Positions 38,162-43,017 of a DNA stretch of 43,107 bases are shown piece by piece; within the stretch, counting starts at the first letter, position 1; each line of letters begins with the position of its first letter. The stretch covers positions 1 to 43,107 of the forward strand of contig JAQVBA010000003.1 in NCBI GenBank assembly GCA_028690555.1, read 5' to 3'. The DNA comes from Acholeplasmataceae bacterium. Its GTDB lineage: Bacteria > Bacillota_I > Bacilli_A > Acholeplasmatales > Acholeplasmataceae. The notes beneath the pieces are model-generated. The model was given only the letters and a program-made list of their open reading frames with translations. It had not been told where the DNA came from and ran no database searches. The position numbers were made by a program, and so were the translations under genes.

Positions 38162-39847
38162 TTATTTTTTCTCTTTATCTTTGTCGTTAAGTGCTTGAAG
38201 TTGTCGCTGTTTCATCAATCTTTTCATTCTTTCTTGACGATAAACGCCTATAAATCTTCCTCTTGAATTGCAATACTCTGTAAATGTCTCTTCAATTACT
38301 CTAATTTTACTTAAAGGTATTGAAAAATCTGTGAACCCATAATTGATTAATTGCCTAAAAATAAATGGATTCCCAACGACATTTCCTGCAAGAATATGTT
38401 TTGTTGGATAGTATCTATTATTTAAATGTTCGTGAATGTCTTTAATTAGTGGTAAAAATAATTCATTAAACTGTGTGATGGATAACTCGGTATATCGATT
38501 AAAATGAATCGAATTTTCTTCAACTAAGTTATCAAACCCAATTATAACAAAATCAACTCTAGGAAACTGATTATAAAACTCATAAGCTGCTTCAGTTTCT
38601 AAAACATACCCAAACTCTGGAATTCTTAAATCTTCATCGAGATATGCCATGATGACATGTCTTTTCCAATCTGATAACTCAGATGCCATCACAACTTTTG
38701 GAATGACGATTTTAACATCTGCTTTAGTGGCTTTAACTGCTTTTGCAATCGCAGTAAAATTATCAAAAAATAATTGATGTTGACTATGAATAAATCCAGT
38801 ATCACTATGTGCAGCTTCCATATATTTAAGCGGCTTATCTGGTGTAAAGTCAGGAACTTTTAAATAAATCGGCAGTCCATTTGCTTTATTAAAAAAATCA
38901 ATAAAAAACTCGACTTGATCATCAATTGTCGGAAGAATCCCTCTCGTCATGAAAAAGAATTCCGTATTGAATGGTCCGATACCATCATACCAATTATAAC
39001 TTGTAATTCGATCTAAATGATTGGCGTTTGCTACTTCAGCATATAGTTTAATTCGATGAGATCCATAACTCGCAATTTCGCCAAACTTAAATGTTAAACT
39101 GTAATATTTTTCGTAGAATCTTTCAAGATCTTCTTTATCCGGGTTAAAGGTTATGCGATTGATTTCTCCATTAATAATTGCAATTTCATCATCGGGATAT
39201 ATTAATGTGCACTGTGCGATTGGTATTTCAAATTCTGTCGCTAATCTTCGAATTAATTCTAATTCTTTCTCTTCTTTTCTTGTGATAATCCCTTTAACAT
39301 TTTGAGGAATATTATGTAAATATTCAGGACGAAATCCGTCACAAACTAATATGATATCCGCTTTTACTTGCTTAAGCATCTCATAGAGAAAAAATGATTC
39401 AAATCGTGTCAAAAGATAATTCATAAAAGTATTTAATTGATTGACAACCTCTTCTCTTCCAGAAAGGTAAAATTCTTTAAGCCCGCTTTCATTTCTTCTT
39501 ATCTGACGCTCAATTTCATTTATAAATAAAGATGGAAAGTAAACTGTTTCTCTTTTTGCTTTTGTGCGACATCTATTCAAAATATCTGGACTTATTAAGA
39601 TTTCATAAATAAAAAAAGCAAAAAGTTGTTTTAGTTTATAATCACCAGATTCAGTCAATATGAATTTGTGATAAGCTCTGCTTTCTTCACTTTTAATCTG
39701 ATCTAATTTTGTGATGAGTAATTCAATATCTTGTGAGTATTGAAACTTAATGACGGATTCTTGATCGAAATGAAATATTTTCCCAATGCATAATCCGCCA
39801 TATACGAATTGGTTATATCGTCGATTTACAGTTTGTTTCCTAGGCAT
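38162..39847 (-). CDS. Degenerate PTS Enzyme I homologue lacking its catalytic residues
   Basis: 561 residues, close to the roughly 575 of Enzyme I, and alignable by eye over its whole length. FVYGGLCIGKIF (16-27) matches the Enzyme I start; VKGIITRKEEKELELI (184-199) lies where the phospho-His loop GGRTSH should be and has no His; GIGPFNTEFFFM (289-300) matches GVGLYRTEFLFM with Arg to Asn; VDFVIIGFDNL (431-441) matches VDFFSIGTNDL with the Asn-Asp pair swapped; ILAGNVVGNP (485-494) replaces the catalytic MCGELAGD, with Cys to Ala. The PEP-site Arg of the IVRT segment is Lys. It probably cannot pass phosphate from PEP to HPr. It overlaps the ROK kinase gene by eight bases and ends at a terminator. 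A regulatory or scaffold role is inferred; its function is unknown. Confidence 0.82.
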   Translation of the reverse strand: MPRKQTVNRRYNQFVYGGLCIGKIFHFDQESVIKFQYSQDIELLITKLDQIKSEESRAYHKFILTESGDYKLKQLFAFFIYEILISPDILNRCRTKAKRETVYFPSLFINEIERQIRRNESGLKEFYLSGREEVVNQLNTFMNYLLTRFESFFLYEMLKQVKADIILVCDGFRPEYLHNIPQNVKGIITRKEEKELELIRRLATEFEIPIAQCTLIYPDDEIAIINGEINRITFNPDKEDLERFYEKYYSLTFKFGEIASYGSHRIKLYAEVANANHLDRITSYNWYDGIGPFNTEFFFMTRGILPTIDDQVEFFIDFFNKANGLPIYLKVPDFTPDKPLKYMEAAHSDTGFIHSQHQLFFDNFTAIAKAVKATKADVKIVIPKVVMASELSDWKRHVIMAYLDEDLRIPEFGYVLETEAAYEFYNQFPRVDFVIIGFDNLVEENSIHFNRYTELSITQFNELFLPLIKDIHEHLNNRYYPTKHILAGNVVGNPFIFRQLINYGFTDFSIPLSKIRVIEETFTEYCNSRGRFIGVYRQERMKRLMKQRQLQALNDKDKEKK

Positions 39848-40857: not shown

Positions 40858-40888
40858 ATATAAAATAAAAGGCACTTTTTCAAGTGCC
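40858..40888 (-). terminator. Terminator of the DegV-MarR operon
   Basis: Minus strand GGCACTT, loop GAAA, AAGTGCC, then TTTTATTTTA. Stable GNRA-type loop, 5 bases after the MarR gene stop. Confidence 0.9.
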
Positions 40889-41343: not shown

Positions 41344-42198
41344 TTATAAAACAATATAGCCTACACCAAGCGTGCCTGGACCTGCATGTGCTCCAACAAC
41401 TGGGGTTAATGGAACAAGTTGAATTTCAAGATCTGGTTTGGAATTCATTAACTGTTGCTTAATTTCTTTAGCTTTTTCTTCATTATTTGTGTATGCAATA
41501 AACATTATAACATGTTTATCCTTAATATCGCTTTGAATTACCTCAATTAAGCGAGCTTGAGCTTTTGCTGTGGTTCTAATTTTTTCAAAAGGAACAAGGC
41601 TGCCATCTTTTTGAATATGGAGTAGGGGTTTTATTTTTAACAATGTTCCAAGAAATCCACTTGCAGCAGATAAACGGCCATTTTTTACTAAAAATTTAAG
41701 CGTATCAACGAGTACATAAATATAAATATGATCTCTTATTTTTTCAAGTCTATCAATGATCTCAACCATTTTATGCCCGTTTTTAATCATTTTAATAGCT
41801 TCTAAAACTAAATATGCTTCGCCATAAGAGACACTTCTTGAGTCAATTACATAGACATTCAGGTCTTGAACAAGGTCTTTTGCTAAGATTGCACCTTGGA
41901 ACGTTCCACTTAGTTTAGATGAAATAACAATCACAATAATATTTTTGTATCCTTCTTCTTTCATTTCTTCATATACTGATGCGATTTTCCCGGTTGAAGT
42001 TTGCGAAGTGGATACATCAATATCCGAATTTGATTCAATAATTTTATAAAACTCTTCTGCTTTAATATCGATAAAATCTTCATATTCTTTTCCATCTAGA
42101 TTTAGAGTAGATCTGATTAATCGGACTGGATAATCTAACTTCATGTAATCTACTCCGGAGTTTCCACATACAATAATACCTATTTTTTCATTTTCCAT
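41344..42198 (-). CDS. DegV-family fatty-acid-binding protein (FakB-like)
   Basis: 284 residues from ATG 42198; the track start six codons upstream is a TTG that is part of the SD region (AAGGAG). IGIIVCGNSGVDY at the N terminus, DVSTSQTSTGKIASVYEEM with the conserved Thr/Ser lipid-headgroup loop, SSKLSGTFQGA, and the C-terminal VGAHAGPGTLGVGYI are typical of DegV proteins, which hold a fatty acid and, as FakB, present it to the kinase FakA. FakA is not in this window. Co-transcribed with the MarR regulator. Confidence 0.93.
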   Translation of the reverse strand: MENEKIGIIVCGNSGVDYMKLDYPVRLIRSTLNLDGKEYEDFIDIKAEEFYKIIESNSDIDVSTSQTSTGKIASVYEEMKEEGYKNIIVIVISSKLSGTFQGAILAKDLVQDLNVYVIDSRSVSYGEAYLVLEAIKMIKNGHKMVEIIDRLEKIRDHIYIYVLVDTLKFLVKNGRLSAASGFLGTLLKIKPLLHIQKDGSLVPFEKIRTTAKAQARLIEVIQSDIKDKHVIMFIAYTNNEEKAKEIKQQLMNSKPDLEIQLVPLTPVVGAHAGPGTLGVGYIVL

Positions 42199-42211: not shown

Positions 42212-42233
42212 TTCAAATTGTTTGAACTTCAAA
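42212..42233. promoter_or_regulatory. Candidate operator in the DegV-MarR leader
   Basis: TTCAAATTGTTTGAACTTCAAA contains three alternating half-sites (TTCAAA, TTTGAA, TTCAAA) forming two overlapping palindromes. The right one, TTTGA-ACT-TCAAA (42221-42233), has the spacing of FabT boxes (TTTGA-N3-TCAAA). It lies just downstream of the promoter, where a bound repressor would block transcription. Confidence 0.55.
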
Positions 42234-42249
42234 ATTTATTACTAATTAA

Positions 42250-42277
42250 ATGATAACACAGACTTTTTTAAAGTCAA
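42250..42277 (-). promoter_or_regulatory. Promoter of the DegV-MarR operon
   Basis: Minus strand TTGACT, 16 bases, TATCAT. A perfect 15-base palindrome GACTTT-TTT-AAAGTC (42261-42275) overlaps the -35 and spacer. Confidence 0.65.
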
Positions 42278-42283
42278 CACTTA

Positions 42284-42961
42284 TTACTCTGCTAGTGCTA
42301 TTTTTTTTAATTGCTCAATAGCAGAAAGTTCATTCTGATGATCAATATGAATTTTTAGAAAATTTCCTAATCTAGCTAATTCTTCATTATTATACAAAAT
42401 ATTATCATTTAATCGAGTGCTGTTGATTCGACTAAATTCCGGTCGATAGATCATGACATAATTAACAACATCAATTTGTGATTGAACCATGTTTGCCAAT
42501 AATTGTCTATAATTAATAGATTCTTGGAGTTTTTTGGTATATCTCTCTTCACTTCTTTTTTCGTCTTGATTGAACATTCCAAATTCTAAAACAACGATTA
42601 GTCTATCGTAAACAATCAAGTAATCTGATCTCATATGATTACCAAACACCAGTGGATATTCCAAAATCAAGTTAATTTGATCAGTTTTGATTCCTTTTTT
42701 AAATAATAGAATAAAAAGTCGACGAATTAATAACATCGTATCAAACCAAGTAATGACTTCTTCTGGTTTTAAATCCCATATGGATAATTTTTTACTCTTA
42801 AAATCTTGTGAAAGTTCAATAAAATAGGGGTTTTTCTGATATTTAATGACCCTATCCTTCAGTAACTCCTTTTCAATATTCCAGCTAGATTCTTCTAAAA
42901 AATTTGAAAACTTATTAAATTCTTCAAAGCCGTTAAATATTCTTAGTGATTTTATTTGCAT
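42284..42961 (-). CDS. Uncharacterised protein, possible nuclease-fold
   Basis: 225 residues from ATG 42961, which has SD GGAGG; the track's TTG start is inside the SD. I do not recognise the family. The centre has FGNHMRSDYLIVYDRLIVVLEFG, then a charged helix DEKRSEERYTKKLQESINYRQLL. A strand with Asp, a second strand ending in V-L-E-x, and a following helix with Gln and Tyr resemble a PD-(D/E)xK nuclease core, but the catalytic Lys after the Glu is not evident (EFG). No signal peptide or membrane segment. It lies between the tRNA-Phe region and the DegV operon with no clear terminator after it. Confidence 0.6.
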   Translation of the reverse strand: MQIKSLRIFNGFEEFNKFSNFLEESSWNIEKELLKDRVIKYQKNPYFIELSQDFKSKKLSIWDLKPEEVITWFDTMLLIRRLFILLFKKGIKTDQINLILEYPLVFGNHMRSDYLIVYDRLIVVLEFGMFNQDEKRSEERYTKKLQESINYRQLLANMVQSQIDVVNYVMIYRPEFSRINSTRLNDNILYNNEELARLGNFLKIHIDHQNELSAIEQLKKIALAE

Positions 42962-43017
42962 GTAATTGTCCTCCAATTAATATTAGATCAATTTTTAGGA
43001 AATTACTCTTAGTGGGA

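Follow-up and report, generated by a model that had tools for sequence, protein, structure and literature searches.

A probable FabT-type operator before the degV-marR operon of an Acholeplasmataceae bacterium and its recurrence before lipid genes of relatives

We analyzed a 43,107-nucleotide stretch of DNA from an Acholeplasmataceae bacterium (the window), whose minus strand carries a degV gene followed by a marR gene, with a promoter and palindromic elements ahead of them and a terminator-like hairpin behind (Table 1). Read in minus-strand order, the leader consists of TTGACT-N16-TATCAT, 16 nt, TTTGAAGTTCAAA, caa, TTTGAAGGAG and the ATG of degV at 42198; the plus strand at 42212–42233 reads TTCAAATTGTTTGAACTTCAAA. 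The promoter has 10 of 12 matches and a TG before the second hexamer, is the top-scoring promoter-like site in the region and is kept across the leaders of relatives. The preliminary description had placed a TTTGA-N3-TCAAA element between promoter and gene, and this is what the leader holds: TTTGAAGTTCAAA is a perfect 13-bp palindrome with a single-base centre, occupying about +11 to +23 relative to the predicted transcription start (centre about +17) and separated from degV-marR by 22 nt. The overlapping second palindrome, said to be made from the same half-sites, is also real: the half-site TTTGAA, which shares bases with the start of the Shine-Dalgarno sequence GAAGGAG, creates TTCAAAcaaTTTGAA together with the primary operator. 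An in-frame TTG at 42216, upstream of the ATG, falls inside this half-site and was judged not to be a start. Further upstream, positions 42284–42976 (minus strand) encode a 230-aa protein without a Pfam or NCBIfam match; several related genomes have a similar ORF ahead of degV. At 38162–39847 (minus strand) the window encodes a 561-aa PtsI-like protein in which Pfam recognises the PEP-binding domain only; its gene is a conserved neighbour of the ROK sugar kinase gene beside degV-marR.

Table 1. Features of the degV-marR locus in the window.
Feature	Position	Strand	Basis
Promoter: -35 TTGACT (42277–42272), spacer 16, extended -10 TATCAT (ends 42250)	42250..42277	-	Promoter scan
Primary operator TTTGAAGTTCAAA (TTTGA-N3-TCAAA)	42221..42233	-	Sequence and conservation among relatives
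Half-site TTTGAA	42212..42217	-	12-leader alignment; 16 bp downstream of primary operator
degV, FakB-like fatty-acid-binding protein, 284 aa	41344..42198	-	Pfam DegV, 3.6e-78
marR, FabT-like MarR-family regulator, 145 aa	40894..41331	-	Pfam MarR
Terminator-like hairpin ending the degV-marR operon ahead of the ROK kinase gene	40871..40888	-	Sequence

The best PDB sequence match of the MarR protein is FabT of S. pneumoniae (6jbx, E = 2.3e-23), which leads the next entry (4.7e-7) by sixteen orders of magnitude. The AlphaFold model of the protein (pLDDT 91) recovers the FabT-DNA complex 6jbx as the first and second Foldseek match. The protein has the winged-helix fold of the MarR family according to both Pfam and this structural match, and FabT is its nearest characterised homologue, with an identity of only about 35–37% over the fold alignment. 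The FabT model is also the best in NCBIfam, at 120 bits, below the 200-bit equivalog cut-off. This cut-off is strict, since no match above it was found in 296 genomes of the class or in control genomes including Lactococcus. As the cut-off is not reached, we call the protein FabT-type and not a proven FabT orthologue. The DegV protein has a fold related to FakB, and its top PDB matches are the FakB1 structures 7sg3 and 6mh9; with 212 bits against the NCBIfam FakB1 equivalog it misses the cut-off of 350 and is named FakB-like only. The link of the two proteins to FakB and FabT, drawn earlier from the letters of the window, is supported by these matches.

A single copy of TTTGA-N3-TCAAA in a window of 43 kb is non-significant: at least one copy occurs in 29 of 100 shuffles, with a shuffle mean of 0.36. 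The significance of the site comes from its conservation among relatives and not from this count. Orthologues of the MarR protein (at least 54% identity) were found in 31 of 61 relatives, their hosts including Acholeplasmataceae MAGs, Acholeplasma laidlawii, A. oculi, A. granularum, Izimaplasma and Anaeroplasmataceae, and degV and marR are adjacent as one conserved unit in dozens of genomes. The exact site stands at the same place before degV in 24 of 30 relatives, against a shuffle mean of 0.08. A second set of degV-marR loci from named genomes, among them A. laidlawii, A. oculi and A. granularum, has it in 33 of 34 cases; the two sets partly overlap in genomes and are not fully independent. 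It is likewise present in 10 of 11 degV-marR loci from other families of the class. Where the exact site is present, variation falls on its central three bases and on the flanks and leaves both half-sites fixed; no exact site precedes degV in the more distant orthologues G011, G018, G029, G033 and G045, or in G050. Other, more distant FabT-like MarR genes, at L247 and L255–L258, adjoin acpP without degV and have no exact TTTGA-N3-TCAAA box nearby.

The sequence TCAAAN3TTTGA, to which the second palindrome of the window belongs, ranks second of 8192 palindromes before degV. It is the junction between tandem sites 16 bp apart, and its rank is explained by the recurrence of full or half-boxes every 16 bp. 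In the window it joins one full site and one half-site: alignment of 12 leaders reveals that the second box has kept just its first half here, which merges into the Shine-Dalgarno sequence. The L023 leader (G036) has a full second site, and the accB leaders of eight genomes have a nearly complete second box (e.g. TTTGAATTTCAAAtcaTTTGAAATGCAAA).

Further copies before lipid genes, which the preliminary description had proposed to seek, are present before acpP and before the acc-fab operon. The genome to which the window belongs (G000), a draft of 1.32 Mb in 149 contigs with 87.6% completeness, contains 18 sites compared with 5 for the reversed control pattern; most are intragenic, and the few clearly intergenic ones include those of acpP and degV. 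In four near-complete relatives the intergenic sites lie mainly before degV, acpP and accB. Most of the other exact sites in G000 and these relatives, being intragenic, were taken as chance. The exact site precedes acpP in 17 of 29 genomes with the MarR protein (the own genome and 16 others) versus 1 of 29 without it (Fisher 6.8e-6, uncorrected for kinship); not every genome with the regulator has it there, exceptions including G005, G012, G018 and G025. The gene accB opens the acc-fab operon or stands close to its start, and all 16 located cases have the exact site upstream; these were found by a start-pattern search in 16 genomes, and elsewhere accB stood on a broken contig or in another gene arrangement, or escaped the pattern. 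Inspection by eye outside the 16 recovered the exact site before accB in G024 and G033, two exact sites before an acp gene neighbouring accB in G025, a one-mismatch site in G034 and no site before accB in G060. When the motif was not preset, TTTGAN3TCAAA headed the ranking of 8192 palindromes in the degV, acpP and accB sets alike (shuffle means 0.06–0.09), and it was missing from the top palindrome list of the acpP set without the MarR protein.

In G001, a genome of the same genus, degV-marR follows directly on the operon accB-accC-accD-accA-fabH-fabK-fabD-fabG-fabF-fabZ-birA, whose genes were named from sequence features, with AccB, FabH, FabF, FabZ and AccA backed by separate searches. The FabH and PlsX loci with flanks of 1.5 kb revealed no conserved exact site; for FabH this is because the fab operator stands in front of accB, several kb ahead of fabH. 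In three g21 genomes plsX is preceded, at about 75 bp, by one-mismatch boxes, which we do not claim as sites. The same operator stands before an MFS transporter gene in three species of one genus (L288, L313 and L318 in G016, G027 and G035), and a similar-looking transporter in L144 (G012) likewise has it. The MFS transporter is a possible further member of the regulon.

The position of the box relative to the promoter differs between targets. At degV and accB its centre lies about +10 to +19 from the predicted start, a position suited to repression. At acpP the box is upstream of the -35 element, with centres at -51 to -53 or -59 to -62 and one exception at -46. The two acpP positions (-52 or -61; L050–L074 leaders) occur in different genera and are about one helical turn apart. 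The acpP spacing has R = 0.63 at 10.5 bp (p about 0.004 versus uniform; 13 values, not all independent). A place upstream of the -35 is unusual for simple occlusion, and its geometry could reflect activation or interference with RNA polymerase.

FabT is known from streptococci, enterococci and lactococci (PMC10138225, PMC13046290), with published boxes ANTTTGATTATCAAATT and ANTTTGACTGTNAAATT (PMC10138225, PMC8406281); it is a repressor of fab genes that responds to acyl-ACP (PMC9083066, PMC5487221, PMC13046290). The system analyzed here shares with the FabT regulon of Streptococcus, Enterococcus and Lactococcus a MarR-family regulator whose nearest solved relative is FabT, an operator of the form TTTGA-N3-TCAAA, like ANTTTGANNNTCAAATT, which at the sequence level precedes the regulator's own transcription unit, and acp and the fab operon as targets (acpP only in the own genome, fab from relatives). 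It differs in gene order: the regulator is part of a separate degV-fabT operon, whereas in Lactobacillales fabT comes first and heads the fab operon. Further differences are the tandem boxes often present before accB at a spacing of 16 bp, the acpP site upstream of the -35 and the failure to find FASII genes in the draft genome of the window. In S. pyogenes the degV gene fakB4 belongs to the FabT regulon, and there too the box falls after the transcription start and before the translation start (PMC10138225). Unlike here, fakB4 is not reported to form one operon with the regulator (PMC10138225), and the DegV protein of the window is closest to FakB1-type structures.

Very probably, the palindrome is the operator of the FabT-type MarR repressor encoded in degV-marR, which would regulate its own operon and use the same site at acpP and acc-fab, with acyl-ACP as the most likely signal. 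We infer that the MarR protein would bind TTTGAAGTTCAAA just past the transcription start of the bicistronic operon and block expression of this operon, including the FakB-like fatty-acid carrier. Copies of the site before acpP would likewise be bound, as would those before the accB-accC-accD-accA-fabH-fabK-fabD-fabG-fabF-fabZ operon where a relative possesses it, with repression expected at degV and accB. Long-chain acyl-ACP, to which FabT responds, is by analogy the likely ligand and co-repressor. Plentiful acyl chains, either exogenous (through FakA/FakB-PlsX) or home-made, would then raise acyl-ACP, strengthen DNA binding and turn the supply down. A lipid-linked, self-regulating unit had been put forward in the preliminary description, and the operators before the own operon, acpP and acc-fab support it as far as sequence can. 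At the sequence level, these genome comparisons give good support to a self-regulating lipid regulon of FabT type in Acholeplasmatales and their neighbours, with its regulator in the degV-fabT operon.

The alternatives concern either the origin of the palindrome or the molecule it serves. Chance in AT-rich DNA would account for a motif that 29 of 100 window shuffles contain at least once. This reading is refuted by the conservation of the site at degV (24/30, 33/34 and 10/11) and in the acpP and accB sets: in dozens of genomes it keeps its place ahead of three lipid transcription units, where the shuffle expectation stays under 0.1, and we regard chance as practically negligible. An RNA element, with hairpins of TTTGAAGTTCAAA and TTCAAACAATTTGAA close to the Shine-Dalgarno sequence that control the translation of degV, would fit the location within the predicted 5' leader and the overlap of the half-site with the Shine-Dalgarno sequence. 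We reject it as highly improbable: at acpP the motif lies upstream of the -35 and is therefore not transcribed from that promoter, and the three central bases are free to vary with the half-sites fixed and no compensatory change.

It is improbable, to a lesser degree, that a different regulator (another MarR or a TetR) binds the palindrome and that the neighbouring MarR protein is unrelated to it. Each genome encodes further MarR paralogues, and in G026, which has the acpP site, no close orthologue of this MarR protein was found. G026, however, is a fragmented draft of 200 contigs whose genus-mate G015 has the orthologue, and the acpP site tracks this MarR protein in the comparison of genomes with and without it. 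The motif is also immediately upstream of the protein's own operon, and it is the published FabT box next to a FabT relative. A further alternative leaves the operator unaffected and concerns the signal: a fatty acid bound by DegV, or DegV itself, rather than acyl-ACP, might be the direct effector of the MarR protein. The neighbouring of degV and marR in dozens of genomes gives this some appeal, as co-transcription suggests functional coupling; co-regulation also accounts for co-transcription, though, and characterised FabT responds to acyl-ACP (PMC9083066, PMC5487221), which makes a DegV-borne signal rather unlikely.

A study of promoters and regulators in Mollicutes does not mention fatty acids, lipids or DegV (PMC5138195), and no FabT paper mentioning Acholeplasma was found in the literature searched. 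We thus found this variant of the FabT-type regulon undescribed for Acholeplasma and its wall-less kin. Acholeplasma laidlawii is a classic model of membrane lipid adaptation, for which the FabT-type regulon gives a concrete, testable candidate regulator. In the degV-fabT operon, conserved in several families, co-transcription would tie the fatty-acid carrier to the regulator.

Searches for FabF, FabZ and AccA gave no match in the own genome (the 87.6% complete draft), in G002 or in G046. The FabH-family matches in these three genomes are weak only, resembling in length and score the second copy present in most relatives; they differ from the strong match that the FabH of the fab operon gives. 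With a completeness of 99%, G046 keeps the regulator together with the acpP and degV operators. The fab cluster of G001 is one contiguous block, so a single assembly gap could delete it from drafts; in both drafts another gene occupies the place next to degV. The absence of FASII in the species of the window is probable. A tentative extension, which we hold to be somewhat doubtful, is that in this lineage the FabT-type regulator outlived FASII, with the regulon shrunk to acpP and degV-marR and sensing acyl-ACP from scavenged fatty acids alone; from the class-I-like acpP site upstream of the -35 the regulator might then act as an activator or compete with RNA polymerase for upstream DNA. If true, a circuit surviving without FASII would show a repressor of synthesis reused as a sensor of scavenging.

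The components of the FakA/FakB-PlsX pathway are shared: the own genome encodes a FakB-like DegV and PlsX, and the genus has a FakA-type kinase. The difference lies in the kinase: no full-length FakA-like_C match was found in this genus, and the FakA counterpart in G001 is a Dak2-FakA_M-DegV fusion. The own-genome counterpart of this fusion (G000:C125) contains a masked run of N. In G001 the fusion has 587 aa (L244:2153-3913; G001:C19) and is apparently the FakA of this genus with a built-in fatty-acid carrier.
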